Source: Coleofasciculus sp. FACHB-1120 | GTDB lineage: Bacteria > Cyanobacteriota > Cyanobacteriia > Cyanobacteriales > FACHB-T130 | Assembly (NCBI RefSeq): GCF_014698845.1 | Contig: NZ_JACJTV010000001.1 | Coordinates: forward strand, 248,001-312,000 | Length of the DNA: 64,000 nucleotides | Direction: 5' to 3' | Part shown: positions 39,142 through 57,582 of the stretch, one piece after another | Layout of the letters: each line of letters starts with the position of its first letter | Position numbering within the stretch: the stretch's first letter is position 1 | Position numbers and translations under genes: made by a program | The notes under the pieces: generated by a model | Databases searched by the model: none | Told to the model about the DNA's origin: nothing | The model's input: only the letters and a program-made list of their open reading frames with translations

Positions 39142-39158
39142 CCCCGTTTGTAAAGTGG

Positions 39159-39206
39159 TGAGTTTTGAGTTTTGGGTTATCAGAGAGTTTTTTAATTCAA
39201 AACTCA
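39159..39206. terminator. Heptad-repeat hairpin between trpA and cheB
   Basis: TGAGTTTTGA (39159-39168) and TCAAAACTCA (39197-39206) form a 10-bp pair, with T-runs on both sides. It probably acts as a bidirectional terminator for the convergent genes. Confidence 0.55.
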
Positions 39207-39249
39207 TCACTTAAAACTTTTGTCTCATTTCCAATGAGCGATTAAATCA

Positions 39250-40311
39250 TTAATCGCTACCCATAATTCTGGCAAGTAACATAGGCGCGATCTCAGTGAT
39301 GGGCAAAACATACTGCGCTGCACCAAGAGCGATCGCTTCTTTTGGCATTCCAAACACCACACAGCTTTTCTCATCTTGGGCAATGGTAACGCCACCCGCA
39401 CGAGCGATCGCTTCCATTCCTTCCGCACCGTCTCTACCCATTCCAGTCAACAATATCCCCACCGTTCCTTGACCGTAGAAACTCGTCACCGACTTAAAAG
39501 TGACTGTGACAGAGGGGCGATGTCCCCCCATCGGCGGGGCGGCAGAATGACAAAATCTGCCTTGAGTATCCAATTCTAAATGCAGCCGTTCCGGTGGAAA
39601 ATAAATCGTTCCCGCTTTTGGTATTTCCCCAGCACGGGCAATTTTGACTGGCAAACGACATTCTGTCCCTAGCCAATCCACCATTCCCTGTAAAAACCCT
39701 TCGCTGATGTGCTGAATACAAATCACCGGCAGGGAAAAATTCACGGGCAGATGGATAAGAATGTTGTAGAGAGCTTGCGGACCTCCAGTAGACGCGCCAA
39801 TCACCACGATTTTGGATTTCTGATGGGGGATTTTAGCTTGGGGATTTATCGTTGAAAATTTAAAATCTAAAACTGCCTTCTTCCGATACTGGGTAAAGAC
39901 ACTCACACCAGAGAGGATTTTAATCTTGCCAATTAACTCCTGTTTTACCAACTCATAATCCGATCCTGCGCCACCACGAGGCTTGGGAAAAATATCCACT
40001 GCCCCCGCCTCTAAAAGCCGGAAAACATTTTGCCTATCTTCTTCCTGTACTGAAGTGCTAATCACCAGAATCGGGCGCGGATAAGTTGCCATAACCTCAG
40101 AGATAAATTCCAGACCATCCATCTGTGGCATATATAGGTCTGTGCAAATCACCTGGGGCGCACAAGAGGGAATCAGTGCCAATGCTTCTCGACCCGTTCG
40201 CGCCATCCCCACCACTTCAATTTCCGGTGAGGACGACAGAATCCGTTTCAGCACTGTCATCGCGATCGCAGAATCGTCTACTAATAAAACTCGAATTGGC
40301 ATTTTGTTCAT
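39250..40311 (-). CDS. cheB: CheB protein-glutamate methylesterase
   Basis: The 353-aa protein has a receiver (residues 5-125; Asp in ICTDLYMPQMDG, Lys in DIFPKPRGG) and a methylesterase domain (about 165-350) with the Ser-His-Asp triad in GASTGGPQAL, CIQHISEGF and LLTGMGRDGAEGM. It removes methyl groups from chemoreceptor glutamates (or deamidates glutamines) when phosphorylated by CheA. It is the last gene of the minus-strand che set and starts 45 bp after cheA ends. Most well-known cyanobacterial taxis clusters lack CheB, so its presence is informative. Confidence 0.95.
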   Translation of the reverse strand: MNKMPIRVLLVDDSAIAMTVLKRILSSSPEIEVVGMARTGREALALIPSCAPQVICTDLYMPQMDGLEFISEVMATYPRPILVISTSVQEEDRQNVFRLLEAGAVDIFPKPRGGAGSDYELVKQELIGKIKILSGVSVFTQYRKKAVLDFKFSTINPQAKIPHQKSKIVVIGASTGGPQALYNILIHLPVNFSLPVICIQHISEGFLQGMVDWLGTECRLPVKIARAGEIPKAGTIYFPPERLHLELDTQGRFCHSAAPPMGGHRPSVTVTFKSVTSFYGQGTVGILLTGMGRDGAEGMEAIARAGGVTIAQDEKSCVVFGMPKEAIALGAAQYVLPITEIAPMLLARIMGSD

Positions 40312-40356
40312 TGCTAATTGCTAATTATTCAAAAGCGATTAGCGATTAGCGATTCA

Positions 40357-42897
40357 CTACACAAGTCTTCTTAATGTTTCTAATAATATTTCTTGGTTGA
40401 AAGTGCCTTTGGTAATGTAAGCATTCGCACCGGCTTCTGCACCTCTGCGTTTATCTTCATCTGAAGCCAGGGATGTCACCAGAATGATTGGAATTTCATT
40501 ATATTCCTTATTTTGGCGAATCCTCGCGGCAAAACCCAGACCATCCAAATTCGGCATTTGCACGTCGGAAACCACCGCATCAAAAGAACGAGTTTTGAGT
40601 TTGTTGAAACCGTCCAACCCGTCCACTGCTGTCACTACTTCATAACCAGCACCCTCCAGAATGCGTTTTTCCTGAGTGCGAATGGCAATAGAATCTTCTG
40701 TCAACAAGATTACGGGTTTTCTGACTTCGTCTGTAATTGGTTTGAACGATTTTACTTGTGGAGTTCGTTTTCGCACAGATTTAATTAAATCTGAAGGATT
40801 TAAAATCATGCAAACTTCCCCGGTACCGAGGATAGTTGCGCCAACTACATTACGAACTCGTTTGAGCAATTTACTTTGAGATTTGAGTACCACATCCTGT
40901 TGATCTACCCAACCATCAACGAATATCCCCAGTTGCTCTTCTCCCACTTTCAAAATAATGCAGGGCAGTTGTTCTTTGTCAGCAGTTCTTTGTCCGTTAC
41001 TACTGACGACTGGTAATTCCAGCAAATCTGCTAGTCGCGCGACGGAAACCGGGTGCCCATTCAAAACAATGGTCTCTCTGCCTTCGATCGTAAAAATCTG
41101 CTCCAGGGAAATCAACCGCGTTGTTTGCACAAACTCCACTGGTAGGGCATAAGCTTTTCCGCTCACTTCTACAATCAGTACCGGCGCGGTTGCCAGGGTT
41201 GTGCCCAGACAAAGCCGCAGCGTGCAGCCCTTTCCGGGTGTTGATTCAACCTCAATGCTGCCTTTGAGGCGTTCTACATTGGTGCGAACCACGTCTAACC
41301 CTACGCCTCTGCCTGAAACTTCGGTCACAAAAGTCCGCGTTGAGAAACCGGAAGCAAAAATCAACGAGTGAATTTGAGCCGGTGTCATGGCGGCGAGTTC
41401 TTCTTCCCGGCAGAGTCCGCGCTTGAGAGCTGTCTGCTTAATTTTTTCGATGTCTAATCCTCGCCCATCGTCCTTGATCGCGATCGCAATATTTGTGGCA
41501 GTTTGGTAGCTTTTGATCTCAATGGTGGCGGTACGCGGCTTTCCCTGTGCTTCTCGCTCGGCTGGGGTCTCAATGCCATGATCGACGCAGTTGCGAAGGA
41601 TATGCATCAAGGGATCTTTCATTTCTTCCAGGATGCGCTTGTCCGCTTTAGTTTCGCCGCCTTCAATGATCAGATTGACTTCTTTATTTTGCTGTCTGGC
41701 TAAATCCCTTACCATCCGGGGAAATAACTGAAAGATGGTGGATAGGGGCAACAGGCGTAGGGTGCGAATGCCTTCTTCCAAATCACCGGCAATTGTGTCT
41801 AGTCTGGCAGTATCTTCATAGATGGCATCTCTTAACTGGTTGATCAGAACTCCCAAGCGCTCGTCGAAGTGCTGTAGGGGTTGGCTCCCCCCGTTTAGGC
41901 TGTAGGGCTGTCCCCCCATCGGTGCTGTAGGGATGCGGTCTCCCCGCCCGTTCTGAGGGGAAGCGATGAAACTTACCGCTTGCCGCCCACCTGTTATCTT
42001 TTCTCTGTGTAGGCTCAGCGCTGAAGTTTTCTGCACGCTTAGACGGCTCGACTCCTCCCACAGCGCCACAATTTCCTCAATTTCAGCTAAGCGATGGGCA
42101 ATGCGGATTTTGGTAACGGTGAGTTCGCCTGCTTGGGTCAGTAACGCATCAAGATTGCGGGTTTCGACGCGAATCGTTTCGATGCGGTAGGGTTCACCGA
42201 GTGCAATGGGTGGCGAGGGAGGGGATTGAGAGCCATTGCTCGAAAAGTTGGGTAGACCGCCCCTACTGTCGAGAGCATTAGGGGCAGGTTTCAAACCCAC
42301 CTCCTTCAACCCCACCTCCATTGGTATCAGAGCTGCGGGGGTTTGTCGAAACGTTGTCTGTAATGTTTCTATGTCGGCGGCTGTTTCGGGCAGTTCGGAA
42401 GTTATATCCGGGGAAAGGGTTTCTTTCTCAATTGCTTCCTCATCTTCTGGCTGAACTACTTCCTGAACGCCTTCCTGGTCTAAAAAATTCTGATGATTTT
42501 GATTGGCTGGAGTTGTAAATTCAGCTCCCATCATTTGGGCGAGGACGAGAAAGGTGTTGATGCCTGCTGGTTCCCCGGTGACGGCTTCGCAGACCAGTTT
42601 GCGAATGGCATCCAAACCTTGATAGAGGCGATCGCATATTGTAGATACCAGTTGTGTCTCGCCACGTTTGACGCCTTCCAAAATATGTTCCAGTTGATGG
42701 GTGAGAGTTTCTACATCACGCACGCCCAGCATTCGAGCATCGCCTTTGAGGCTGTGGGTTTCTCGCAATAATTCTTCTAATCGAACTTCGTCGTCAGGGT
42801 ACTTTTCTAAATGCAGCAACCCGTCATCCAGTTTTTGCAAATGTTCTTCGCTGGCAATTTTGAATAAATCTCGGAGTTCGTCGTCTTCTATAATCAT
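40357..42897 (-). CDS. cheA: CheA-type hybrid kinase with C-terminal receiver
   Basis: About 846 aa. Hpt domain (residues 3-108) with HSLKGDARMLG carrying the phospho-His; linker; dimerisation and ATPase region with NCVDHGIE, DDGRGLD and GRGVGLDVVRTNVERL; CheW-like domain (about 550-690); C-terminal receiver (about 722-846; Asp in AVVSDVQMPNLDG, Lys in AYITKGTF). CheA-REC hybrids are typical of Wsp/Frz-type alternative chemosensory systems. The ATG at 42897 is preferred over TTG 42906. The dimerisation region (about 245-375) holds extra low-complexity residues encoded by palindromic repeats (41870-41975); a second repeat lies in the linker (about 42238-42295). Confidence 0.94.
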   Translation of the reverse strand: MIIEDDELRDLFKIASEEHLQKLDDGLLHLEKYPDDEVRLEELLRETHSLKGDARMLGVRDVETLTHQLEHILEGVKRGETQLVSTICDRLYQGLDAIRKLVCEAVTGEPAGINTFLVLAQMMGAEFTTPANQNHQNFLDQEGVQEVVQPEDEEAIEKETLSPDITSELPETAADIETLQTTFRQTPAALIPMEVGLKEVGLKPAPNALDSRGGLPNFSSNGSQSPPSPPIALGEPYRIETIRVETRNLDALLTQAGELTVTKIRIAHRLAEIEEIVALWEESSRLSVQKTSALSLHREKITGGRQAVSFIASPQNGRGDRIPTAPMGGQPYSLNGGSQPLQHFDERLGVLINQLRDAIYEDTARLDTIAGDLEEGIRTLRLLPLSTIFQLFPRMVRDLARQQNKEVNLIIEGGETKADKRILEEMKDPLMHILRNCVDHGIETPAEREAQGKPRTATIEIKSYQTATNIAIAIKDDGRGLDIEKIKQTALKRGLCREEELAAMTPAQIHSLIFASGFSTRTFVTEVSGRGVGLDVVRTNVERLKGSIEVESTPGKGCTLRLCLGTTLATAPVLIVEVSGKAYALPVEFVQTTRLISLEQIFTIEGRETIVLNGHPVSVARLADLLELPVVSSNGQRTADKEQLPCIILKVGEEQLGIFVDGWVDQQDVVLKSQSKLLKRVRNVVGATILGTGEVCMILNPSDLIKSVRKRTPQVKSFKPITDEVRKPVILLTEDSIAIRTQEKRILEGAGYEVVTAVDGLDGFNKLKTRSFDAVVSDVQMPNLDGLGFAARIRQNKEYNEIPIILVTSLASDEDKRRGAEAGANAYITKGTFNQEILLETLRRLV
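41870..41975. repeat. gctgtaggg repeats inside cheA
   Basis: Three imperfect units beginning gctgtagggg, gctgtagggc and gctgtaggga, each followed by a C-rich complementary arm (ctccccccg, gtccccccatcg, tctccccgcccgttctgagg). The last aligns with 19976-20007 in the ABC ATPase gene. The unit set is translated as ASPQNGRGDRIPTAPMGGQP. Confidence 0.6.
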
Positions 42898-43022
42898 GGT
42901 TAACAAAGAAGCTTTTAGCTTTTGGTTGTTAGTTTTAGAGATAATTAGCCGTGATTTTTGAGGATATTTTTAAGCGGATCTAGCAATCTTGGTTGACTGG
43001 TGAATTTTCTTTGGTTAACGAA

Positions 43023-43094
43023 CCGCGTTGGCGGAGCCTGCACGTTAGCGCTTAGACGCTCTAGCAAAGCGGTGCGAAGCCTAGGACGCCAAGT
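43023..43094. repeat. Dispersed repeat, aaccgcgttggcg type, second copy
   Basis: The plus-strand sequence aaccgcgttggcggagcctg continuing cacgttagcgcttagacgc repeats 31478-31520 in opposite orientation, followed by gcaaagcggtgcgaagccta. It lies between the mcp end and the cheA start and is non-coding. Confidence 0.75.
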
Positions 43095-43154
43095 AAGAGA
43101 GGAAAAGGAGCAGATAATTTTACAACTCCTGAATGGATTGCTATTTGGGATTCT

Positions 43155-44735
43155 CTACACCACTGACTTGAGGTTGAGAGCCGCTTCATTCAATCTTTGG
43201 ATGCCGATTTTAGTTTGAGTAATGCCACTGGCATTTTCTTTCGCTGCGACATTGAGGCTGCTCATTGCATCAACGACTTGTTGAATCGCGATCGCTTGTT
43301 GTTTGGCGGAAAGCGAAATTTGTTGACTGTTTATAGCGATATTTTCGATAGCATCAGCCACGCCGGTGAATGCTTGTGCTGTGCCCTGAGCGGTTTTCAC
43401 CCCGGCTTCCACCGTTTTCGTCCCTTCATCCGTCACCATCACCGTGACATTGATCGCGTTTTGAATATCGCCAACTAGGACGTTAATTTTCCCGGCGGAT
43501 TTCTTACTTTGTTCTGCCAGTTTGCGAATTTCTGCCGCCACCACCGCAAAGCCTTTGCCATGTTCGCCAGCTCGAACGGCTTCAACGGCTGCATTCAGTG
43601 CCAGCATATTCGTCTGGTTGGCTAAGTCACTCACCAAGCCAGAGATATTGCCAATTTGATTCGTTTGCTCGGATAGAAGGAGAATTTGAGAAGCGATCGC
43701 TCCCACTCTATCTTTGAGCAGCGCCATTTCCTCCAAAGTTCGCCCGACGGCTTGGCTTCCACCCTCCGTCAGCGACAGCACCTGCCGCGAGCCGGTTGCT
43801 GCTGCTTCGGCTTGCTCTGCTGATTGCTGGGACGAAGCACCCAACTCATCCATCGTGATCGTGGTTTGATTCACAGACGCTGCTTGTTGAGCTGCCGTGC
43901 GTTCTTGTTGCTCTACCGTGGCAGCGATTTCTGATGAAGAAGTGACAATCGTGTTGACGATGCCAGATATTTTGGCACCCAGCGGCTTAGCAATCGTGAT
44001 GCTGAAGAAAATGCCAAAGATAATCGCAGTAACGGGACCAAGAATTACACCCAGAACCAGCCAAAATGTTGTTTGAGTCACATCTTTTTCTGCTGCCCTC
44101 TGGGCTGCTTCCCCAATGTTGTGGCTGTATTGCAAAACTTCTAGAACCGATTCTGTGGATGTGTTAAAGGAGTTTAGTTCTTCGTTTGCTGCCAGTTCGC
44201 TGAGTTGATCCAGCAGGGAATCTGCTGCTTTTGCAGCTGCAAATTCCGGTGAAGTCTGCCTCTGCTGACTGACAAGCTCAGCCAGACGGGTTGGGGGATC
44301 TAAGATGCCTAGCTTGACAAATTGTTGATAAATATTCAGAAAACTTTCATGGTCTCGTTGCCACTTTTTCCAGTCTAGAAGAAATTTTTGATAGAGCTTT
44401 TTTTCGTCCTCGGTCTGTGGAGCTGACTCATATTGTTTAAACCCTTCGTCAATCTGCTCTTTAGCATTTTTCATTCGGTCTAATTCAATTTGCCGATTTT
44501 CTTGGCTCAAGAGTGTATTAAGTAGCGCTCGCTCCGCTGACTGGATTTGGGTCTGCCCTTCATTGATTTTCCACAATCCAGTTATGCTGGGCAAAGTATT
44601 ATTCCCCAGTGTATTGATATGACCGCTCAGCCGAGAAGCTCCGTTCCAGCCTACTAGGGCAACCACTAATACAATTAGACCCATTAATAAAAATGAGCCG
44701 ATTAATCGGGATTGTAAAGACAAATTCTTAAACAT
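43155..44735 (-). CDS. Methyl-accepting chemotaxis protein
   Basis: The 526-aa receptor has TM1 (about 11-33), a periplasmic four-helix-bundle ligand domain (35-215), TM2 (about 222-247) and a cytoplasmic signalling hairpin (about 270-520) with the tip motif [33 protein letters not shown] read across residues 385-417. I see no complete HAMP domain after TM2; [15 protein letters not shown] joins almost directly to the helical bundle. Glu/Gln-rich helices flanking the tip offer methylation sites for CheR/CheB. Ligand unknown. It is encoded between cheW and cheA, so it is the array's own receptor. Confidence 0.94.
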
Positions 44736-45566
44736 CAGACTTATCCTGCATTGTCAAATTACACGATTGGTTGAAGATTAAAGGCGACTTTGTTCAGATT
44801 CTGGTGCCAAGTATTAGTTTGAGTAAGGCAAGGAGTTTCTTTGCTTCCCCAATCAATCCACTATGACTGGCTGGATAGCGATCGCTCATTTCATAGCCCT
44901 CAGCAAGAGAAAGTCAGTAACCCAAAATACTCTAGCTAGTTCCCCCTGGCTCTGATTTTCCATTTTTGAATTAAATACATCCTCACAGGATTAGCAGAAA
45001 TACTGTTGACAAATTCTTCTTGTGGCAAGTTTTTCTGAAAAATTGAATTGCTAAACAGAGGATTGTTTAGCAAATGTAAAATTTCTTAGTCAAGCTTGCC
45101 CCTAAAATCTCCAGAATCCACCAGAGAAATACTCCTGGGAATTTTTTAAAGGATTTATTCATACTCAGTTTGGCTTAGAACGACTTTTATTATTAATCCC
45201 TCTTTTGCCCTAGGAGTGTTAAGAGTTTAAAAAACTTAAAATATAGAGATGATATTTATTTACGTTACCAACCAGTCGTGTGCATATTCACTAAACGACT
45301 GCCTGAAATCTTAAGGAAGTGTTACTGAGGTTTTGAGTGCAGATTTTCGGTGGAGTGATGCTGGTAGCAGTTTCTTTAGCTTGCTGATTAAAAGCACCAT
45401 ATAGAGCGTTCATCGCGCCCACAGACGTGAAAGAAAGCGATCGCGCTTCCGCTTTTCTGTTCAGCATCACCAACTCTATAAGGAGTGCAATACCGCCTGG
45501 TTTGCTTTTTCAGCAAGCAGTAGAGCCTTTTTGGCAATTTTTTTGGCAATAGAATTTAATAACTAA
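44736..45566. other. Long gap between cheW and mcp
   Basis: About 830 bases. A minus-strand frame at 45291-45473 (60 codons) has no strong ribosome site and no recognisable family; I leave it uncalled. The gap makes a separate promoter for mcp-cheA-cheB likely, although none was fixed. Confidence 0.45.
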
Positions 45567-46625
45567 TCACACTTCTTCATCAACCATTAATTCTGTTTGC
45601 GTCAAGAGCTTCGGTAAATCTAAAATAGCCATCATTTTTTCGCCGTAAGCAACCGTCCCCCGGAGGTATTCATTATTACCAGAACGCGCTGCGGCAGGCA
45701 CTGGCATCATCTCCGACAGGTGCAAATACATCACATCCAATACCTGATCAACTATCACGCCAGCAACCAGATCGTCGATGCAAGCAATCATCGCTTTTGA
45801 TGTATTCTCTAGATTACCCAATGGTAAATTTAATACTCCACGAATATCGATTAATGTCAAAATCTCACCCCGCAAATTCATATTGCCGACAATATAAGCT
45901 GGGCAACAAGGAATTGGAGTAACTTTGCGAATATCAGTAAATTCGCGCACGTTTCCTAAATCTACACCAAAATATTCACCATTTAAATTAATCACTGCCA
46001 TCGGGCGACTCCCAGAAAAATCTTGGCTCTCTGCTTGCCGCATTAAACTGTCTGCCCGTTCCCGAAAAATCGCTTTTTCTTCAGATGTTGTATTGGAGGA
46101 AAATAAACGGTTTTTCTTAGAAAAACTAAGGGAAGTATCAGCTTCCCCTTCTAGATTGAACGGTTTTTTTTCTGTAATTAATGCTTCAATTTGCTCTGAG
46201 GATTGGAGAAGCTTTTCCGGGTTCAGCAACATCACGATATCTGCCTCTACCTTGGCAACACCCCTAACCAAATGGGGTTGATTCGTGACTTCTCGTTTAT
46301 AGGAGAAATCTGTTGCGATCGCATTCGCGGAGATTTTCTGCACGTCGTGAACTTCATTGACAACAATGCCAAATCTCAATCCCTGAGATATCAGAACAAT
46401 GACACTATCCGTGAGGCGGTATTCAGGGAATCCGTACCCAAGGCGAAAATGGAGATCCATAACTGGCAAAATTTCACCCCGGAGATTAAGCACTCCTACC
46501 ATTTCCGGCGGTGCTTCTACGATTGGGGTTAACTCCGGGAGAAAGAAAATCTCCTGTACTGAAAATGCTTCTATTCCATAAAGTGAAGCATTCAAGCTGA
46601 AAACAATATAGTGTTTAGATTCCAT
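45567..46625 (-). CDS. cheW: CheW-like coupling protein with two CheW domains
   Basis: The 352-aa protein has two CheW folds in tandem (residues about 5-150 and 205-345), each with the glycine/strand pattern (VGVLNLRGEILPVMDLHFRL; VGNMNLRGEILTLIDIRGVL). A charged linker (about 155-200, QIEALITEKKPFNLEGEAD) joins them. CheW bridges receptors and CheA. A double CheW is unusual compared with the about 160-aa single form and may replace the two separate CheWs of Wsp systems. It starts 5 bp after the cheR stop, so the genes are co-transcribed. Confidence 0.93.
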   Translation of the reverse strand: MESKHYIVFSLNASLYGIEAFSVQEIFFLPELTPIVEAPPEMVGVLNLRGEILPVMDLHFRLGYGFPEYRLTDSVIVLISQGLRFGIVVNEVHDVQKISANAIATDFSYKREVTNQPHLVRGVAKVEADIVMLLNPEKLLQSSEQIEALITEKKPFNLEGEADTSLSFSKKNRLFSSNTTSEEKAIFRERADSLMRQAESQDFSGSRPMAVINLNGEYFGVDLGNVREFTDIRKVTPIPCCPAYIVGNMNLRGEILTLIDIRGVLNLPLGNLENTSKAMIACIDDLVAGVIVDQVLDVMYLHLSEMMPVPAAARSGNNEYLRGTVAYGEKMMAILDLPKLLTQTELMVDEEV

Positions 46626-46630
46626 AGAGT

Positions 46631-48211
46631 TTATAGCTGAGGCTGTAACATTTTTTGGAGGTGTACGATCAATTCTCTAGCCGTCATTTTTTCTTGCGAC
46701 TCAATTGTCGTTTCTTGGGGTAATTTTTTTAAAATTTCTAAAGCGGCTGTTCGCATTTTTAAAGTTCTCAAGAGATTACCTTCACTCTCATAAAGGCTAC
46801 TGAGTTCTAGATACGCCGAGATAGAAGAAGGCACTAAATAAATGATTTTTCTCAATAAATTTTTAGCTTCTTCAACATCCCCTTTTTCTTCAGCAATATG
46901 GGCGAGTAAATATAAGGGCTTTTCCGAAAGAGAATCGATTTTCAGTGCTAGTTGGCAGTAGTGAACTGCCTTATCATACTCACCTAAATTGGCATATATT
47001 AGAGCCATCAAATAGTAGGAGCCAAAGTTTTTGGGTGCCAGAGCGATCGCTTGTTCTGTTTTTTGAATCGCCGAAGCATAATATTTCTGTTTAAAAAGGG
47101 TTTCTGCTTCACAGAGAAGTGTCTGAAAAGTGGAAATGTCCGCCGGTATCTTGCTAAGCTCTAAATTAGATAAGTATCCAGATTCATTGACTTTTGGATT
47201 AATTTTATCTCCAATTTGTACCGGGAGATAATTTTTAGGGATTAATTGTACAAATTCTCTTTCCTGTTGATTTGGCGTCGAAGAGGATGGGCAGCTTATT
47301 GGTTCTTCAGTATTAGAATAAACTTTTACTGTTTTCTTAGAAAGCTTTGCCCCAATCTTTTCTTCGGGGCGCTGATAGATCGTAGATTCGGGAAACGACT
47401 CAGTGTGAAACAAGCTTAGATCCAGCCCTTGAAGTTCAGCATGAGCCGTCAAAAGATATCCTCCTGGTTGTAGAGTATTGTAAAATTTGTTGACAACAAG
47501 GGAAATAGCCGGTCTGTCAAAATAAACAAAAACATTCCGGCAAAGAATCAAATCAATATTTTGAATATCTAACAATAGATTAGGGAAGGGTGTTTTAATT
47601 AAATTGACGATTTTGAAATTAACCATATTTTGAATATCTGCGTTAATTTTCCATTCCGTCCGATGTTGCTCAAAGTAACAATTTTGTAATTGCAGGTCTA
47701 ACAATCGAAATGACCAAGAGCTATAAATTCCTTGTCTTGCTTTATTAATGGACTCTTGATTAATATCTGTTCCTAAAATATAGAGATTCCAGTTTTCCCA
47801 GTCTGGGATGAGTTGGGTGAGAAGAATCGCCAGGGAATAAGGTTCTTCACCAGTTGAACATCCCGCGCTCCAAATTCGCAGAGTTTTTGTTTGCCTTTTA
47901 GCAGCGATTAAGCGCGGTAAAATTTGATGTTTTAATAAAGAGAATTGACCTTTGTCTCGAAAAAAATAACTTTCGCCAATTGTCAACAAAATCGCGAGTT
48001 CTTGCCATTCACACTGACTTTGATAACTATCAGTTTCTAATAATTGATAATAGACTTCAGGAAGATAGATAGAAACGGCATTCATCCGCCAGCAAATTTT
48101 CTCACATAAAGCTTCTCGATCTTGCGGGCGAATCTGTAAGCCTGTATGAGTCCCGATGAGTTGTAAAAAACGCTGTACGAGAGCCTCATTAAATTGTCTT
48201 TGAAATGACAC
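46631..48211 (-). CDS. cheR: CheR methyltransferase with C-terminal TPRs
   Basis: The 526-aa protein has a CheR N-terminal helical domain, then a SAM-dependent catalytic domain (about 60-275) with WSAGCSTGEEPYSLAILL and ILGTDINQESINKARQGIYS, then DLILCRNVFVYFD. A linker and three or more tetratricopeptide repeats follow (about 370-510; NFGSYYLMALIYANLGEYDK, KPLYLLAHIAEEKGDVEEAK). CheR methylates receptor glutamates. The TPR form is like WspC/FrzF and typical of alternative-function arrays. It is downstream of the LOV kinase by 140 bp and overlaps nothing. Confidence 0.94.
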   Translation of the reverse strand: MSFQRQFNEALVQRFLQLIGTHTGLQIRPQDREALCEKICWRMNAVSIYLPEVYYQLLETDSYQSQCEWQELAILLTIGESYFFRDKGQFSLLKHQILPRLIAAKRQTKTLRIWSAGCSTGEEPYSLAILLTQLIPDWENWNLYILGTDINQESINKARQGIYSSWSFRLLDLQLQNCYFEQHRTEWKINADIQNMVNFKIVNLIKTPFPNLLLDIQNIDLILCRNVFVYFDRPAISLVVNKFYNTLQPGGYLLTAHAELQGLDLSLFHTESFPESTIYQRPEEKIGAKLSKKTVKVYSNTEEPISCPSSSTPNQQEREFVQLIPKNYLPVQIGDKINPKVNESGYLSNLELSKIPADISTFQTLLCEAETLFKQKYYASAIQKTEQAIALAPKNFGSYYLMALIYANLGEYDKAVHYCQLALKIDSLSEKPLYLLAHIAEEKGDVEEAKNLLRKIIYLVPSSISAYLELSSLYESEGNLLRTLKMRTAALEILKKLPQETTIESQEKMTARELIVHLQKMLQPQL

Positions 48212-48350
48212 AGAATCTCCTTCTGATTAAAATTGCCCGGTAGGGCGAAAAAATCGCTTTACGGGCATACTCTACAGGCATCCAGGGAGGGAAGCAACGA
48301 TGCGGCATCGGCATTCATCGGGAAGGGCAACGCTTTGCCGGGTTGAATTG

Positions 48351-51300
48351 TTAAAGGGAGGGAATCCAGGGAATTTCAATCGAAAACTCTGCCCCCTGAC
48401 CTGGTTCTGACAGGCACTTGAGCATCCCGCCATGTTTCTCTACCACAATTTGGTAGCTAATAGATAGCCCCAAACCAGTTCCCTTGCCGACTGGCTTGGT
48501 GGTGAAGAAGGGGTCAAACAAACGCTTGATCACGTCCTCTGACATTCCTGGGCCATTGTCTCGAATCCGAATCACAACGATTTGGTTCTGAGTCATGGGG
48601 GGTCGGTCATTGGTGATTGGCGTTAGCGGCGTGTTAGGGCTTCGAGTCTCTTCCCCATTACCTGTTACCTGTTGACGATTTCGGATTTCGGTAGAAATGG
48701 TAATTTTCTTTGGTTCTGGTTGGCTGTCGAGGGCATCAATGGCATTACTGAGAATGTTCATGAACACTTGATTCAGCTGACCGGCGTAGCAATCGACTAA
48801 GGGAAGATCGCCGTACTCCTTCAAGACTTGAATCCCGCCGTAAGCGCCATTAGGTTTCAAACGGCTATGGAGAATGAGCAAACTATTGTCGATTCCCTCA
48901 TGGATATCCACCGGCTTCATTTCAGCTTCATCCAGGCGAGAGAAGTTTCGCAGTGACAAGACAATCTGACGGATGCGGTCAGCGCCCATTTGCATGGACG
49001 ATAGCATTTTGGGCAAGTCATCGATGATGAAGTCTAAATCAATCTCTTCCTCCTGGGTTTGAATTGCGGAAACAGGATTGGTGTAGTGCTGTTGATAGAG
49101 GTGTACGAGATCGAGTAGGTCTTGGATGTAGTCGCTGGTGTGGCTGAGGTTGCCGGTGATGAAATTGACTGGGTTGTTGATTTCGTGGGCGATACCGGCG
49201 ACCATTTGACCCAAGCTGGACATTTTTTCGGTCTGAATCAGCTGAGATTGGGCTTGTTTGAGATTGTGCAATGCTTGCTCTAGTTGTTGGGTCTGGGTTT
49301 GAGCAGCACGGGCGGCGGCACGACTTTGGGCGTAGAGTTCGGCTTGGTCAATGGCGATCGCTAGCTGATCCACGACGCCTTGCAGTAGCTCGATTTCGCT
49401 GTCAAGCCAAGGACGAGATCCACTGCTATGACTACAGACAATCGCGCCTAGATGACCGGCGTGGGTTTTCAAAGGTAGCAGCAGCACCGAACGAACACCC
49501 AAATTGCTCAGTAGAGGCACGAGACTTTGCATTCCATCCTCGGCACTGAGGCGGCGATCGCTTGTCAGATCGTCAACCCGCAAAGTCTGAAGTTGGCGGA
49601 TTTTCTCGCTGAGGGGATCGAGTTCTTCTGGGGGACACTCGGAGAGCAAACTGGGTCTACTGGCGTCTGTTGTCGCTTCGTGAGTGACGGTCAGACTCGC
49701 CTGATTGGACTGCGCCCAGCACCACAAATACTGGCATCGGTCAACTTGCAACAAACAGCGAATCTCATTCACAGCGGTTCCCAGGATGGTATCCAGGTCG
49801 AGGGAATCGCGAATCTGGCTTGCCAAGCGGAACAGCAAGGCTTCTCGACGTGCCGAGAGGGCTTCTTTCGCCCAAGACCGATCGATGGCGATCGCGATCG
49901 CGTTGACGACCCACCCCAACGCTTGATGAACAGCTTCGCTAAAGCGTTGGCTGTTGCATATAGCCATGACGCCCACCAGTCGGTCTTCGACAATCAGGGG
50001 ATAGGTTGCCAAATAGCTTTCGGGGATTCGCAAACAGCTTTCAGCGACAAAATCATTGTACAGACGGGCTTCCAATCCGCCCCCAGACCGATAATTACTA
50101 TCCTGAGTCAGATAGGGTTGACGAGTTTGAGCGACGAAGCCGATTAGGGAACCGTCGAGAACCTGGTGACGCTGAGCCAACAAATCTTCCCAATAGAATT
50201 CGCGCTGAGAATCAACCCTTGTGGTTGCTTGCAATTCCAAGCGGTTAAGTTTTTGATTAAATGTCCAGATACACGCAAAAGTTGCATCGAGATGCTCCAC
50301 CATTGCTTCCGTACAGCGATTGAGGCTTTCCGATAAAGAGCCAGCCGCGCCCAAGGCAGTACCGACTTCTGCTTCCAGGGTGGAGAGGCGCGATCGCTCC
50401 ATCAGCGCTGCCTCTGACTGTTTACGACCTGTAACATCCCGGAAATAAACCGATAGACCATCTTGATAAGGATAGCCTCGCACTTCAAACCAGCTCTCTA
50501 GAGGCTCATAAAACACCTCAAAGTGAACGGTTACTTGATTGGCAACTGCCCGGTGATACTCATGATAAAAATTAGAACTGGCTGTTTCTGGAAACTCATC
50601 CCAAATACACCGATCAATTAACTCATCTTTGCTTCTAAACAAAAGCTGCTCTGCCCGTGAGTTCAGATAAGTAAATCGCCATTCCGTATCTAAAGTAAAG
50701 AAAGCATCGGTAATACTTTCCAAAATGTTCCGAGTGCGGTTCTCGCTGTTGACAGCTGCCTCCCGCGCCGCCTGTTCTCGCGCCAAAAGTTGAATGCGCT
50801 CCTCCTCCTGCCGCTTGTGATCGTCGATATCCGTGTTCGTCCCAAACCAACTAACGATCTTGCCTTCGTTATCATGCACGGGAACCGCCCGCCCCAGGTG
50901 CCAGCGATAGCTTCCCTCAGTTACATTCAACAGGCGAAATTCAACTTCGTAAGGCTCTCCCGTAGAGAGAGAATGGCTCCATCGGGCGATACAATCTGGC
51001 ACATCCTCCGGATGCAGCACATCTTGCCATCCCCAGCCCACCATTTCCTCAAACGTGCGTCTGAAATATTCCAGAACGCGCTGGTTCACATAATCGAGTG
51101 CCCCATCTGGCTGTGCCGTCCATACCTGCTGCGGAATCACTTCAGCTAAGGCGCGAAAGCGCTGTTGGCTTTGTCTTTGTAATTCTTCTGCCCATTTTCG
51201 CTCAGTGATATCTTGACGGATGGCGACATATTCAACAGGTTGTTGGTCGGAATTTAAGACGGGCACAATTGTCGTATCCACCCAGTAACAAGTTCCGTCT

Positions 51301-53486
51301 TTGGCTCGATTTCTGATTTCGCCATGCCAGACGCTGCCACTGCTGATGGTTGCCCACATCTGCTGAAAAAATTCCTTGGGGTGATGTCCAGAATTAATGA
51401 TGCGGTGATTTTGTCCGAGCAGTTCCTCTCTGGAATATTGAGAAATTTCGCAGAATTTATCGTTTACATAATTAATCTTTCCGGTGCGGTCTGTAACTAC
51501 CACAATCGAAGATTGATCGAGGGCAAACTTAATGTCTGCCACTTCTTTGAGGGACTCAGAGAGTGCCGACTCGGCTCGCAGGCGCTGTTGTTGGGTATGA
51601 GCATCTTTGATGGTAATCGTCAGATATCCAGCCATATCAACCAAAGTGGCGATCTCGTGTTCGTTCCATTTATATGGTTGCGGCGAGTCAAAGCACAGCA
51701 AGCCGATTAACTGGTCGGAATGCTGCAAGGGGATGTCCAGCATAGACTGAGTTTGGCCTGTCAGCAAGGCATCCGCTAAAGGTGTTAGCCTGAAGTCTTG
51801 GGTAACATCGTTACAGATGAAGGATTCGCCCATCTGCAAGGCATTAAGATATTCCGATGCAACCGTCAGATCGATGGCTAATCCTGAGAGTTTCGGCATT
51901 CCCGGCGGTTCGATGGAGGAAATCACCATCAAGATGCCTTGGGGATTAATCGTTGAATAAGCTACTCGCAGATGAGGAAAATATTCGCTAATTTGTTTGA
52001 GCGTGCGTTCAATTATTTGCTCTATTGACAAACCCGATCGGGTTTTAGTCGAGATGCTATTGAGCAATTGGAGACGAGTTTTGCTGTTCAGGAGTGCTGT
52101 CTCGGCTCGTTTAGCGAGCGTGATGTCTGTCTGAATGCCAACTAAGTAAAGTAAATCGCCCTTGTCTGAGAACACGGGCGAAATTTTTAATTGGTTCCAA
52201 AAAGGTTGACCATCTTTGCGATAGTTTAGCAGCGTGACTTTAACTTCTTTCGCTTGAGCGATCGCATTCCGAATTTTTGCGATCGCTTCTGGATCGGTAT
52301 CAGCACCTTGCAAAAACCGGCAGTTGTGACCAATCACTTCATCTGGTTGATACCCAGTGATTCGGGTGAAAGCTGGGTTTGCGTAGACAATTGGGCAATC
52401 TGGTTGGTGGGGATCGACGATGACAACGCCATCTGAAACTGTTTTCACAGCTTGTGCCAGTTTCAGATTTTCTGCTGCGACTCGATGCAAGGCGTCTTTC
52501 GGTTGCTGACGTTTGGTGATATCCATTACTGTGCCAATCGTGCGAACCGCTGTTGCCGTTTCGCTGTAAAGAACTTTGCCTTTTCCCGCTATCCAGCGGA
52601 CGCCGCCATCAGGGCAGACAATGCGGAATTCAATCTCGTGGTCTGTTTTATTCTCAATAGAGGCAGCGATCGCTCCAGCGACAAGTTCCCGATCTTCAGG
52701 ATGAACGCAATTCAGGAATGCTTCCTGAGTTCCATCAAAGGTGCCTGGAACTAGACCCAATAGTCTCTCTAAATTATCAGAGCCTGTCGTATCAATGACT
52801 TGACCTGTTACCAGATTAAAGTCCACAAGGCTCGTATAAGAAGCTGCTAGCCCTAACTGAAATCGGGCTTCTTTCTCGCAAAGCGCTGCTTCAGTTTGCT
52901 GTTGATTGATAATAATTTGTTCAAGATTAGTTAAATTTTTTCGCAGTTGTAGTTGAGCGATCGCTTGCCTTCCTAATGTCGCCAGCGCTTCCTGCTGTTC
53001 CCGACTTAAATCTTGCGGCACATCATCAAGCGCAGATAGCACGCCTACCATTACGCCCTCAGGCGTGATTAAGGGCACACCCGCATAAAATCGGATTTTT
53101 GGGTCGGATTTCACTAAGGTATGGCTAGCAAACCTTTTATCAGACAGCGTATCTCGAACGAGCATCAACTCGCATTCGCAGATTTCTGGTTGCAGGATTG
53201 CATAAGTGCAGAAAGCAACATAGGCGTCAGTGTCTGGCGTGGAAATGCCCAATTTTGACTGGAGCCAATGTTGTTTGCCATCCATGAAGCTGAGCAGCGC
53301 CATCTTCGTCTGGCAAATATAGGCTGCCAAACGTGTCAGTTCGTCAAACGCAGCGACAGCTCTTTGAAGATACGCTAGCTCCGGAGGAGCCGCAACGCTG
53401 ATGCAATTGGGAATAGAGTCTAGTAGGGGACACCATCGCAGAGTATCGAGCGGGATAGCTCCGTTTCCAGGTATTTGTGCGTTCAT
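48351..53486 (-). CDS. Giant LOV/PAS/GAF sensor histidine kinase
   Basis: About 1711 aa (numbering below counts from GTG 53516). Order: GAF (about 45-195), PAS (215-340), LOV-type PAS (355-468) with the flavin-binding GHNCRFLQG (photoactive Cys399; codon 52320-52322), GAF (480-640), PAS (655-775), PAS (785-905), PAS (930-1035), GAF (1045-1215), GAF (1225-1395). A coiled coil leads to HisKA with [14 protein letters not shown] (His1444) and an HATPase ([16 protein letters not shown]). In the ATPase, residues about 1614-1645 ([18 protein letters not shown]) are an extra low-complexity insert. The start is ATG 53486; GTG 53516 is less likely. It heads the che gene set. The LOV domain suggests blue-light sensing, and neither terminal GAF has a bilin-cysteine pattern. 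Confidence 0.93.
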
Positions 53487-54340
53487 TTTAAGCGCCCTTT
53501 TCTGCGAATGCTGCACTTTTTTAAGCTAGCTGTATAAATGTTTACTCTTATTAAAACCGGATGATGAAGACACTCTTTGAGACTTACCTCTTCTTTGCCT
53601 CTATGAGAGGATTTTGTGAAGGCTATATGATGTAAATTTTCCCTTACTTAGTTACTGAACTTAATCTTTTATACTGCATCGCTCAAGTTAGGTTGGTTGA
53701 TGCAAGTCACAAACTAAAAGAAACAACAGAGCGAAGCCCCCAGACGTCTTTAGGGAAGGAGAGCTTTTTAGGATCTGCAAGCAGAAGTGCGATCGCACTT
53801 CTGCTTGCAGTCTGCTAAGTTGCCGTTTTAGCGCAACTTGGCAGAACCTGCTGTATTTAGGATTCCCGTTAAGGAGATATTTCTATCACATACTGATTAT
53901 TTTTTGATTGAACAAACACCCCACCTGCTTCTTCCAGATAATTTTATATTCAGAAAACAGATGTAACTTCAGTTCTGTGTTTTGTTACAATTATTTAACT
54001 GGATTCCCGTAGTTCTTCTATTTACTGAGTAATAATTATCAAGCTATAGTGCGTATAGTAGACGCTTCATTTTAATAAAATTCAATTTTTGTGAAGTGTT
54101 TTGGTATAGAAAAATATTAAACAAACATTTATGAATAACTAGCGTTGAAACACTCAACATAAAGTAGAAAAGCTTTAAATTAAAAATAGCTAGGCGGGAT
54201 AGATGTATCCTACAAAGGAAAGCGATGCTCTCTTACCTACTGGGGCTGACGTTAAAATAATTTGGATTCGGCATTTTAATAGCCTTTGAACCAAATTCAA
54301 CGATTGTAGATTTTCGTAGACTAAAAATTGGGTAAAGAAG
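53487..54340. other. Regulatory intergenic region of the che locus
   Basis: About 850 bases separate the divergent LOV kinase and CheY-like genes. It holds the 36-bp palindrome (53775-53810), a second AAGTTGC/GCAACTT hairpin (53817-53839) and long AT-rich tracts from 53870 to 54190. No supported gene is present. Confidence 0.5.
53775..53810. repeat. 36-bp perfect palindrome centred on HIP1
   Basis: CTGCAAGCAGAAGTGCGA joined to its exact reverse complement TCGCACTTCTGCTTGCAG, with the centre forming GCGATCGC. There is no loop, so it is a dyad of 18 bp per arm. Confidence 0.9.
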
Positions 54341-54742
54341 ATGTCTTCAACTTTGAGTGATATACCGACCATCCTAGCGGTGGATGATAGTAGCGTTATG
54401 CAGACGCTGATCAAACGTGCCCTAGAGAGAGACTACAGAGTTTTGGTGGTAGATAATGCAGTAGATGCTTTATCGGTGATTTACCACCAACCGATTTCAA
54501 TTTTATTACTGGATGTCTCCATGCCAGGAGTGGATGGCTTAGAACTCTGCCGCACGGTTCGGAGTTTGCCGCAATTTCGAGATTTACCCATCATCATGCT
54601 GACAGCGCGAGACGGAGTTTTTGATAAAGTACAAGGGCGACTGGCAGGTGCAACTGAATATTTGACAAAACCCTTTGAGGCTGAGCAACTACGCCAGATT
54701 GTTGGCAATTTTATTACTTCAAATTGTTCAACTGAAATTTAA
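54341..54742 (+). CDS. CheY-like response regulator
   Basis: The 133-aa receiver (AVDDSSVMQTLIKRALERDY; Asp in ILLLDVSMPGVDG; Thr in IIMLTARDGVFDK; Lys in EYLTKPFEAEQL) ends 12 residues after the fold, with no output domain. The GRLAGATEYLTKPF signature resembles the PilH/TaxP-type regulators that pair with CheA kinases controlling pili or motility. It is divergent from the LOV kinase at the end of the che locus and is the best candidate for the diffusible output of CheA there. AAAGAAG precedes ATG 54341. Confidence 0.92.
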   Translation: MSSTLSDIPTILAVDDSSVMQTLIKRALERDYRVLVVDNAVDALSVIYHQPISILLLDVSMPGVDGLELCRTVRSLPQFRDLPIIMLTARDGVFDKVQGRLAGATEYLTKPFEAEQLRQIVGNFITSNCSTEI

Positions 54743-54824
54743 TTTCCACTCCCTCAAACTAGAACTGTTAGCGTAGCGAATACTTGTTGGTTAAAATCAG
54801 TTGCCAACAGGATGCCATTGGTTC

Positions 54825-54858
54825 AAATCCCCGACATCTCTCTCGAAGTCGGGGATTT
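54825..54858. repeat. Inverted repeat, possible bidirectional terminator
   Basis: AAATCCCCGAC (54825-54835) pairs with GTCGGGGATTT (54848-54858) over 11 bp around a 12-base loop. It lies between the convergent cheY-like and cyclase genes. Confidence 0.65.
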
Positions 54859-54963
54859 CGCCTTCACGAATCATTTAAGACTGGTACAGTTATCCTATTT
54901 CTGGGTTATTTTGCTGATAGCTAATCGCCAAAATAGAGGTTTGCAATTAACCATTAGCCATTC

Positions 54964-57582
54964 CTACTTTTCCGTCAGCGTAAAAACGCCATCCCAGTTA
55001 TCAGGAGGTGGTTCTTGGAGAAACAACTGACAGCGTTTCAGGTGCAAAGCAGCCGCTTTGTCGTTTTTATCAATTTCTTCCAGAATGGTGCCAAACTCAC
55101 CCATCGCGCGAGTAAACTTACGATTTAAGTAATAGTCACGTCCCTTATGGTAAAGATCGATTACCGCTCTCTTTTCATCGGAAATTTTCTCTTCCCGCAG
55201 CCCCACCAGTTCATAGATATTAACCGGCGTATTCTTACCTTTGACTCGAATACAGTCAAGCTCTCTTGTCCAAATTAAATCTTTGCAAGGCTGATAAGTG
55301 CTTTCGCTAATCACAATATCGCAACCATATTGCTTGCTAGCACCTTCTAAGCGAGATCCCAAATTCACTTCGTCGCCAATTGCGGTGAACTCCATGCGCT
55401 TACTGGAGCCAATGTTACCGCTAATTACCGTACCGGAATTAATCCCAATCCCAATCTTAAACGTTGGGAATCCTATGTTTTGGCGACAGGCATTAAATTC
55501 TGTCAAACGATGCCGCATTTCGACGGCTGTTTGTACCGACATCCAGGCATGATCCTGCAAGGGTAAGGGAGAACCAAAGACTGCCATAATGGCATCGCCA
55601 ATATATTTATCGAGGGTGCCTTTGTGTCTAAAAACAGCATCTACCATCGACTCAAAATATTCATTGAGCATCTGCACCACATCTTCTGCATTCATGCTTT
55701 CGGTTAAGGTGGTGTAACTGCGAATATCTGAGAACAAGATGGAAACTTCTTTTTTATCGCCCCCTAGTTTGGCGTCACCGCTATTGATTAACTGTTCTGC
55801 CAATTCTTGAGTCATGTAGCGGTACATCGTACTCTTGAGGCGCTTCTCTTGAGAGATGTCATCCATCACTACCAGGGCACCGTAGACGTTGTTATTGTCG
55901 CTGGCATCCGCAATGGAGTTAATTGACAGGTGAATGCTATGTTGTTGTTCTTCTGTCGAGAGCAAAGTTTGATCGGGGTAGTATTGTTGGCGGCTTTTTT
56001 CTTCAGCGGCGTCTATCGCAGCTTTAAACCATTTAGAAAAGTCACCTTCTTTGATGCGGATCAGATCGGCAATTTTTCTACCTTCTATTTGATCTTCATT
56101 TTTAAATCCTAAGAGTCGCTTGGCGCTTTCATTCGCTGCAATAATCTGACCGGATTTATCAGTCGAGAGAACTCCATTAGAAAGGCTGCGGAGAATATCA
56201 CGCTGCATTTGTTCTTGCTGTTTGACCGTCGCAAACAATTTGGCATTTTGCAGCGCTACACCGGCTTGAATATTAAATGCTTCCATGAAAGCTTCATCGC
56301 TTTGATTAAAGCTTGCCTTCCAGCATTCAGGGGGTTCGGGCCAAGTTTCCGGATTATAAGAGGGGAATTCTCCCTGCTTTTTCTTATTTACAAGTTGGGT
56401 GACACCAATCAACGCTTTATCGGCGTTAAAGATTGGCATACATAATAAGCTACAAGTGCGATAGCCATTTGCCTGATCGACTTGTTTAGACACTTCAGAA
56501 TCTGGATCGGCATAGAGATCAAAGGAGATATTCAGGGGTTTGCCAGATTCAGCAACTTTACCGACATAACCTTTTCCAACTGGCACTCGCAGTTCTCGCA
56601 TGGAACCGTCGGAAAGAGGGATTCGTGTCCATAAGTCATGGCGATCGCTATCTAACAGCCACAGAGTGCTACGATCTGCATTCATCAGCTCCTGGGCTTC
56701 ATGCATGACCCGTTTCAGGGTATCTTCTAAGTCGAGATTGCTCTGGCTTAAGGATCGAGTCGCCTTCATCAAGGCATCAGAAGCCCGCTGTCTCTGCGTT
56801 GCCATGTAAAAAGAGCGGGAACTTTCCAGAATCAGGCGAATGGAAGGAGCAAATTCGGCAAATATTATTTCATCTTTTGAAGTAAAGCCATTGAGATCGA
56901 TTCTTTCCGCTAACGGCTTTCCTGGCTGATTAGGTAAATTTAATTTATTAATTAATTGAACGACTGCAACTAAATTTTCCTCTTCGTTTACCAGAGGTAA
57001 AGTCAACATTGTATAGGTGCGATAGCCATTTTCCTGGTCTTTCTTCTTGGCGAACGCAGAGCGGGGATCTTCGTAAAAATCAAAAGGAATATTAATACTT
57101 TTCTTATGGGTTGCAACCTCACCTGCAATCCCTTTATCGGCAGGAATCCGCAACTCTAAAGGTCGCCCCTCTGCACCTTCGGCAAGAATTGACCAGAGTT
57201 GGTTCTTTTCTTCATCCAGTAAATAGATTGTTGTGCGATCTGCACCAAGTAATTCTCCGGTTTTCAAGGTAATGGCATTCAACATTTCTTGAAGAATGGC
57301 ATCAAAACCCTGACTATCAGTCAACATTGACAGGGTTTGATTGACTACCTGGAGCTTTTCTTCGACACCTGTGACAACTTCTTTGAAAGTTTCCTTATTC
57401 AGTGGGGCAAGAAGTGCCGTAAAACTTCCTTCTTTTGTGGCTAATGCACCACCCGTACCTGTAGGAATACTTGTAGAGGTTTGGGGAATTTGATTCCCCA
57501 TTTGATTTTCATCGTGAGGAACAACATCAATCACCCTGTCTGTATCGTTCCAAGCATGCTTTTTGGTAGATGAAGGTGTCAT
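54964..57582 (-). CDS. cyaB: GAF-GAF-PAS class III adenylate cyclase (CyaB type)
   Basis: The 872-aa protein matches Anabaena CyaB1/CyaB2 architecture. GAF-A (about 95-255) and GAF-B (285-445) each contain the cyclic-nucleotide NKFDE motif: NK212-213 with F233/D237/E238, and NK399-400 with F425/D429/E430. Then come PAS (460-580), the cyclase domain (605-790) and a helical TPR-like tail. Cyclase residues visible: metal-binding Asp in FSDIRSYTTL (619) and GDAIMAVFG (663), adenine-selecting Lys728, Asp737, transition-state Asn740 and Arg744. cAMP binding to a GAF is known to activate such enzymes (positive feedback). All catalytic residues are intact, so activity is expected. Confidence 0.94.
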   Translation of the reverse strand: MTPSSTKKHAWNDTDRVIDVVPHDENQMGNQIPQTSTSIPTGTGGALATKEGSFTALLAPLNKETFKEVVTGVEEKLQVVNQTLSMLTDSQGFDAILQEMLNAITLKTGELLGADRTTIYLLDEEKNQLWSILAEGAEGRPLELRIPADKGIAGEVATHKKSINIPFDFYEDPRSAFAKKKDQENGYRTYTMLTLPLVNEEENLVAVVQLINKLNLPNQPGKPLAERIDLNGFTSKDEIIFAEFAPSIRLILESSRSFYMATQRQRASDALMKATRSLSQSNLDLEDTLKRVMHEAQELMNADRSTLWLLDSDRHDLWTRIPLSDGSMRELRVPVGKGYVGKVAESGKPLNISFDLYADPDSEVSKQVDQANGYRTCSLLCMPIFNADKALIGVTQLVNKKKQGEFPSYNPETWPEPPECWKASFNQSDEAFMEAFNIQAGVALQNAKLFATVKQQEQMQRDILRSLSNGVLSTDKSGQIIAANESAKRLLGFKNEDQIEGRKIADLIRIKEGDFSKWFKAAIDAAEEKSRQQYYPDQTLLSTEEQQHSIHLSINSIADASDNNNVYGALVVMDDISQEKRLKSTMYRYMTQELAEQLINSGDAKLGGDKKEVSILFSDIRSYTTLTESMNAEDVVQMLNEYFESMVDAVFRHKGTLDKYIGDAIMAVFGSPLPLQDHAWMSVQTAVEMRHRLTEFNACRQNIGFPTFKIGIGINSGTVISGNIGSSKRMEFTAIGDEVNLGSRLEGASKQYGCDIVISESTYQPCKDLIWTRELDCIRVKGKNTPVNIYELVGLREEKISDEKRAVIDLYHKGRDYYLNRKFTRAMGEFGTILEEIDKNDKAAALHLKRCQLFLQEPPPDNWDGVFTLTEK

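Follow-up and report, generated by a model that had tools for sequence, protein, structure and literature searches.

Several described signalling systems share parts with the locus considered here, which lies in a 64,000-nucleotide stretch of the genome of the cyanobacterium Coleofasciculus sp. FACHB-1120 (contig NZ_JACJTV010000001.1, positions 248,001 to 312,000; hereafter the window). In it, the gene for a large histidine kinase with a LOV domain precedes a set of chemosensory (che) genes and diverges from the gene for a single receiver domain. Described LOV histidine kinases, such as Brucella LOV-HK and the YtvA–FixL chimera YF1, resemble the window protein in carrying a LOV domain with the full set of key residues upstream of HisKA and HATPase domains. 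By contrast, the window protein is much larger and multi-sensor, has a che set and a divergent receiver as neighbours, and scores below the NCBIfam cut-offs for blue-light-activated histidine kinases (NF052306 equivalog, 215.6 versus 450 bits) and for YtvA (226.1 versus 250 bits). Clusters of the CheR-TPR or alternative-cellular-function (ACF) type, of which Wsp is an example, share with the window CheR with TPRs, CheA with a C-terminal receiver, CheB, a methyl-accepting chemoreceptor (MCP) and two CheW domains. The Wsp system includes a REC-GGDEF response regulator, whereas the window cluster has none and instead places a stand-alone receiver beside a sensor kinase; as Pfam finds no REC-GGDEF regulator from cheB to the flanking adenylate cyclase gene, membership of Wsp was rejected. 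With the cyanobacterial Tax, Pix and Hmp systems the window shares MCP, CheW and CheA, and its receiver is kin to one PatA-like lineage. Systems of the Tax/Hmp type have PatA-like and CheY-like regulators and lack CheR and CheB; the window has both CheR and CheB, and its cluster holds a single receiver in place of a PatA-like gene. In Myxococcus, the histidine kinase CrdS and the chemosensory system Che3 act on one regulator, CrdA; the likeness lies in a kinase and a chemosensory system on one regulator, and the differences in the NtrC type of that transcription factor and in there being no light sensor. In UirS–LsiR of Synechocystis, a photoreceptor with a downstream PATAN response regulator changes the direction of motility (PMC7690835); that photoreceptor is a cyanobacteriochrome rather than a LOV protein, and the text on UirS–LsiR in this source does not mention che genes.

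No description of this gene arrangement was found in the open-licence full-text literature searched, which speaks only weakly for novelty. Each element is known, namely LOV kinases, CheR-TPR clusters and joint control of one regulator by a kinase and a che system; their combination makes a new variant. The locus bears on how cyanobacteria merge light, redox and chemical cues into one motility or surface decision, a field in which a passage of a recent review terms the upstream sensing of light direction enigmatic (PMC12288463). We propose, at slightly less than an even chance, that the kinase and the divergent receiver form a two-component pair placed on the CheR-TPR chemosensory system, such that the kinase and CheA would share one receiver.

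The kinase recurs beside cheR and its LOV domain is modular

The kinase gene (48351-53516, minus strand; 1,721 residues counted from a GTG) heads the minus-strand che set, with cheR-TPR next downstream, as described in the original prediction, which had been made from the window sequence alone. Its linkage was followed in comparison genomes, with genomes, families and loci denoted here by the analysis codes G###, f## and L###. A search for CheR-TPR covered 291 genomes of the class, with 75 matching at E ≤ 1e-30, and 195 of the order, with 105 matching at E ≤ 1e-60; the C-terminal 672 residues of the kinase were sought in 195 order genomes drawn in the same way (115 at E ≤ 1e-90). Best kinase matches were usable for 84 genomes (listed matches stronger than about 1e-151), and 74 genomes are listed in both searches. 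In 24 of these 74 genomes, from eight families, the best kinase match precedes cheR-TPR on its own strand at a distance of less than 2 kb; the remaining 50 have the kinase within 20 kb of cheR-TPR (six genomes), farther away on the same contig (nine) or on another contig (35). By our arithmetic, about 0.5 genomes would be expected by chance to have the kinase within 20 kb of cheR-TPR. Three f36 genomes of the class search share the gene order, their 1,602-residue kinase lacking the LOV motif; in G224 and G145 the kinase is shorter, and a receiver stands between it and cheR. A search for related loci returned seven named loci, six of which (Laspinema, Oscillatoria and Phormidium) have a PatA-like regulator and no kinase upstream of cheR.

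A quick tree was built from 69 kinase C-termini, 59 of which we call core kinases; the other ten are nine distant sequences and one very divergent sequence, a split chosen after seeing the tree. The window kinase joins those of G315, G335 and G297 (support 97) and, more loosely, those of G367, G291, G307, G302 and G324 (83). The nine distant sequences, which comprise paralogues from the window's own and other genomes and one cheR-adjacent kinase of G331, form a set at 100 beside the f7 and f11 kinases (91), and the kinase types of f36, G224, G408 and G051 branch outside a set of 58 sequences (99). A single clade of all core kinases was not borne out, as the nine distant sequences nest among them. 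Within the nearer families, strict orthology of the kinases is likely on this tree.

The LOV motif, written as NCR(F/C/L)L(Q/K), occurs in seven of the 69 kinases, all of them core (window, G315, G291, G302, G324, G352 and G331). Five of the seven lie immediately upstream of cheR-TPR, that of G352 is unlinked, and that of G331, the best kinase match in its genome, adjoins another cheA-cheB pair. This distribution requires four changes on the kinase tree. At the same gene position, G335 and G297, both of the window's family, carry a kinase without LOV: the window and G335 kinases align over residues 11-212 and again from residue 637 to the C-terminus, and the PAS-LOV-GAF segment of the window kinase (residues 213-636; 51609-52880, minus strand) corresponds to 14 residues in G335, a difference of about 424 residues. 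The G297 kinase has the length and match pattern of G335, and the kinase of G367, from the same family, has PAS domains without a LOV motif at that site. The LOV domain of G331 is of a different subtype from the other six (split supported at 100/98 in a tree of 15 sequences). A single clade of the LOV domains of these kinases was not shown: holding the six together gave p = 0.086, and the half of the tree that contains them also includes two LOV domains from elsewhere in the window's genome (L003 and L108).

On these comparisons, the element that recurs beside cheR is the kinase and not the LOV domain, and LOV as a conserved element of the linkage was rejected, given seven of 59 core kinases and its absence from G335 and G297. 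The original prediction had named absence of conserved synteny with cheR as a point that would count against it; synteny holds for the kinase (immediately upstream in 24 genomes, within 20 kb in six more and apart in 44) and fails for LOV. LOV thus appears as a modular, exchangeable input of this kinase, and the kinases of G315 (with LOV) and G335 (without), at the same gene position, offer a natural comparison for the addition of a light module to an existing pathway. That blue light acts on CheA or a chemoreceptor directly through the LOV kinase is the most improbable of the explanations considered here: the kinase is immediately linked to cheR, but LOV is not conserved within that linkage, and none of the Pfam domains of the kinase is CheW, MCP, HAMP or Hpt.

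Two flavin-type domains in the window kinase

The domain order GAF-PAS-LOV-GAF-PAS(FAD-like)-PAS-PAS-GAF-GAF-HisKA-HATPase was read by us from Pfam families and their best stretches, combined with script annotation; similar kinases stand beside cheR-TPR in other genomes. The LOV domain (residues 350-475; 52092-52469, minus strand) is the second PAS domain of the protein (Pfam PAS_9, best stretch 362-466), and aligns along its length with solved LOV domains of bacteria, algae and plants (4gcz, 8a3u, 1n9l, 2v0u and others). It has the motif GxNCRFLQ, with C399 as the predicted adduct-forming cysteine, and retains N431, N441 and Q462, the two asparagines and last-strand glutamine of LOV, which we take to be the residues that contact the flavin. 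The complete LOV signature with a photoactive-type cysteine claimed for the second PAS domain is therefore present, and the loss of flavin mononucleotide (FMN)-contacting Asn or Gln residues, which had been listed as counter-evidence, is not seen in the window. These residues predict flavin binding and blue-light photochemistry. It is very unlikely that the photochemistry has been lost and that the domain is a structural or redox PAS; variants do exist among the related che-linked kinases (last-strand Gln to Leu in G291, L116 8017-12054; motif NCRCLQ in G302 and G324, L132 5618-9229 and L135 10297-13233), but the Cys, both Asn and the Gln are retained in the window and in G315.

Searched as a degenerate DNA pattern, the LOV motif has seven matches in the genome and none in a reversed control; it is not a chance string, yet it is not rare here. 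None of the other six motifs has annotated che genes around it in loci of 12-20 kb. With these seven motifs and at least 150 PAS_9 matches (150 of 253 candidates scored), a LOV domain alone would be unremarkable in this genome. Variants occur elsewhere in it, with GRNCRFLK in a GAF-LOV-PAS kinase (L003) and GRDCCFLQ in L007.

A second flavin-type PAS domain spans residues 655-780 (51177-51554, minus strand). Over residues 672-778 its top-ranked PDB match is MmoS PAS-A (3ewk; 129.7 bits), and, by our count on the 3ewk alignment, T675, H704, N736 and R767 occupy the positions of T103, H132, N164 and R195, the flavin adenine dinucleotide (FAD)-pocket residues of MmoS named in a passage of a paper on Aer (PMC9668731). 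The domain is probably of the MmoS/Aer FAD type, with redox or oxygen input, and would bind FAD. A search of the 69 kinases for the string HR..NS found this type in the window, G315, G335, G297 and G367 and in one distant G180 kinase; the LOV-bearing kinases of G291, G302, G324, G352 and G331 gave no match. Dual input into one kinase is feasible, by analogy, because an engineered kinase that sums LOV and heme-PAS signals is described in a section of a review (PMC6798134). The catalytic core consists of HisKA (H1444) and HATPase_c (Pfam; 48369-49214, minus strand), with HisKA scoring slightly below its Pfam cut-off (26.8 versus 26.9 bits).

The divergent receiver is kin to receivers of PatA-like regulators

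The divergent gene, originally called cheY-like, encodes a single receiver domain of 133 residues (54341-54742, plus strand; Pfam), the proposed shared output of the kinase and CheA. A divergent single receiver is found among the two open reading frames (ORFs) upstream of 40 of the 59 core kinases (14 families) and of none of the ten others, and accompanies the kinase also at loci without che genes. Compared with 28 receivers that accompany che-linked kinases, that of the window shows 65-95% identity; with 11 that accompany unlinked kinases, the figure is 64-77%. Outside this group, the nearest relatives of the window receiver are receiver domains (69-70%) of PatA-like regulators, 385-386 residues long, that G412 and G424 encode within CheR-TPR clusters lacking the kinase. 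Identities are 40-70% to 11 PatA-like regulators of this related type and 29-42% to 28 others, as against 32-38% to nine CheA receivers, 32-38% to eight CheB receivers and 26-36% to 14 other receivers of the same genome (a sample, one being a second copy of the window CheB receiver; the genome encodes more). The window protein is not itself PatA-like, consisting of the receiver only, with no N-terminal PATAN-type part. The PATAN models of Pfam and NCBIfam gave no match to the PatA-like regulators at the cut-offs used. Their name rests on general background and on a full-length match (hhalign probability 100) to a profile whose members include two regulators from other che clusters of this genome; by gene order, we take these two to be of the PatA/HmpA type.

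In a quick tree of 121 receivers, 49 single receivers form one set (99) within a set of 60 that includes 11 PatA-like receivers (97). The same 60 stay together (88/70) in a more careful tree of 90 of the 121, from which CheB receivers, most other receivers of the window's genome, two short sequences, one of 346 residues and 11 near-copies (31 in all) were left out. Origin of the single receiver by loss of a PatA-like N-terminal part was considered; the quick tree favoured it and the careful tree did not settle it. The original prediction had offered two readings, that blue light feeds the chemosensory pathway or that the two share an output. The shared output is the better supported, because the nearest kin of the receiver beyond its own group are the receivers of output regulators in other CheR-TPR clusters; nothing found supports the direct feed.

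The kinase and PatA-like regulators also exclude one another in the loci examined. Among 108 genomes with an examined che locus, 34 have the kinase in the cluster, 32 a PatA-like regulator, none both and 42 neither; in the 51 loci where cheA, cheB and cheR are all visible, the counts are 12 with the kinase, 21 with a PatA-like regulator and 18 with neither. A PatA-like regulator was counted as a regulator of 340-470 residues within 1.5 kb of a che gene, the size window having been set after viewing the loci. Loci were at most 20 kb, some cut by contig ends, and related genomes were counted separately, so that the p values overstate. Taking the receiver–kinase pair anywhere in the genome, a PatA-like regulator is present in the examined cheR locus of none of 38 pair-bearing genomes and of 32 of 70 others (Fisher test, 3.5e-8); for the related PatA-like type alone, the counts are none of 38 and 11 of 70, from four families (0.0075, uncorrected for kinship).

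The kinship and the exclusion bear on the explanation that the kinase uses the receiver alone, as an independent two-component system whose adjacency to che genes stems from joint regulation or inheritance, with no shared output. Such a system would account for receiver–kinase pairs apart from che genes in f61, f4, f2, f11 and f1 loci, and for the 44 of 74 genomes with listed matches for both CheR-TPR and the kinase in which the two are not within 20 kb on one contig. It would not lead one to expect that the receiver's closest outside relatives are PatA-like receivers of che clusters, or that no PatA-like regulator occurs in the examined cheR loci of the 38 pair-bearing genomes, and we consider it somewhat unlikely.

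A proposed output node with two kinases

One receiver lineage is found in che clusters, either borne by PatA-like regulators or standing alone beside the kinase, and the simplest account would be one output node with two kinases. The window receiver would be a stand-alone relative of the output receiver that other CheR-TPR clusters hold inside a PatA-like regulator, and the kinase would have gained, or kept, the PAS-LOV-GAF module in this genus. Blue light would give an FMN-cysteinyl adduct at C399, and the change in the LOV domain would pass via linkers to the kinase core and set the phosphorylation of the receiver; the MmoS/Aer-type PAS probably contributes redox or oxygen input. In parallel, CheA would set the same receiver, with the chemoreceptor as its driver and with CheR and CheB adjusting it. 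Type IV pilus activity, or some other surface behaviour, is the probable final target. In Synechocystis, PATAN regulators bind the motor of the type IV pilus or act on it, according to passages of two sources (PMC12288463, PMC7690835); a receiver without the PATAN part need not do so. Type IV pili are likely in this genome, where a search with the type_IV_pilB model gave one near-full-length match (541 bits versus a cut-off of 675.65 that all 14 control genomes also miss).

If true, the shared receiver would constitute a concrete node of one small protein and two kinases. A broader, joint reading is held more tentatively, as possible but clearly short of even: many cyanobacteria would have the output receiver of their methylation-adapting chemosensory system as a stand-alone protein, separate from a PatA-like partner domain and paired with a kinase whose inputs (LOV, FAD-type PAS, GAF and PAS) are exchanged between lineages; one receiver would then add an adapted chemosensory signal from CheA to a non-adapting blue-light and redox signal from the kinase, and the two LOV subtypes in the kinase group would mean that LOV was inserted more than once, or once and then replaced.

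Several observations weigh against the shared receiver. The receiver–kinase pair occurs away from che genes in several families; 11 pairs are so labelled, one of which (G429) lies within about 5 kb of che genes by positional comparison. Of the 32 PatA-like cases, the related type (40-70% identity) accounts for just 11 and the rest show 29-42%, so the exclusion rests partly on a more distant PatA-like lineage. Of 34 families, 13 have the kinase in the cluster and 13 have a PatA-like regulator; f35 belongs to both groups, through different genomes. Nineteen genomes have a core kinase with no divergent receiver, and of the 12 of their cheR loci that were examined, three hold a PatA-like regulator and nine none. 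The core kinases do not form one clade, so orthology across all families is not demonstrated, and the clade of 49 single receivers is not recovered in the careful tree, which does not reject it either (p = 0.376). CheA and CheB, moreover, bear receivers of their own.

Signal flow could also run the other way, with CheA phosphorylating the receiver, which would then dock on the kinase and alter its activity; the kinase would be the che output, and LOV would gate that output. This is an unlikely but serious rival because, in a survey of cheR-TPR clusters, most response regulators are multidomain, about 40% have a kinase module fused to the receiver, and 20 are single receivers (PMC3447774). A neighbouring receiver and kinase could be a split version of this fused arrangement, and Pfam lists no receiver in the window kinase. 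Yet only one of the 69 annotated kinases, a distant one from G180, has a fused receiver, and the pair also exists away from che genes, where plain phosphotransfer from kinase to receiver is simpler.

Gene content and flanking features of the locus

Downstream of the kinase, all on the minus strand, follow genes for CheR with C-terminal TPRs (46631-48211; 526 residues), CheW (45567-46625; 352 residues), an MCP with a four-helix bundle (43155-44735; 526 residues), CheA with a C-terminal receiver (40357-42906; 849 residues) and CheB (39250-40311; 353 residues, exceeding two NCBIfam CheB cut-offs). Together these proteins, assigned by Pfam, make up a CheR-TPR (ACF-type) cluster. The order agrees with that first described, save that the 'tandem cheW' is one gene with two CheW domains. 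The kinase–cheR gap is 139 bp, and a consensus scan lists no terminator-like site in it; the cheW–mcp gap is 831 bp (44736-45566; 790 bp in G315 and 155 bp in G335). A single transcript from the kinase to cheB is doubtful, because this latter gap holds a terminator-like hairpin (45073-45048). Beyond cheB lies a gene for the tryptophan synthase alpha chain. In cheR clusters of other cyanobacteria (L077, L080, L159 and others), CheA has several Hpt-like matches, up to seven in L159.

For the kinase itself, an in-frame ATG at residue 11 is a likelier start than the GTG, because the kinases of G335, G297 and G054 start there in the alignment. The divergent region between kinase and receiver measures 824 bp (53517-54340), and hundreds of base pairs in many relatives too. 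An Rfam scan of 39000-55200 gave no match at gathering scores, and a known RNA element in that interval was rejected. The divergent region contains a perfect 36-nt palindrome (53775-53810) with the centre GCGATCGC, which is imperfect in G315.

Beyond the receiver, on the same strand as the kinase, lies a GAF-GAF-PAS adenylate cyclase gene (54964-57582), which we take to be of the CyaB type; its two GAF domains match 1ykd, a solved GAF structure of an adenylate cyclase (E = 1.8e-186). Because an adenylate cyclase adjoins the receiver also in G315, G335 and G297, cyclic AMP may be part of the same circuit.

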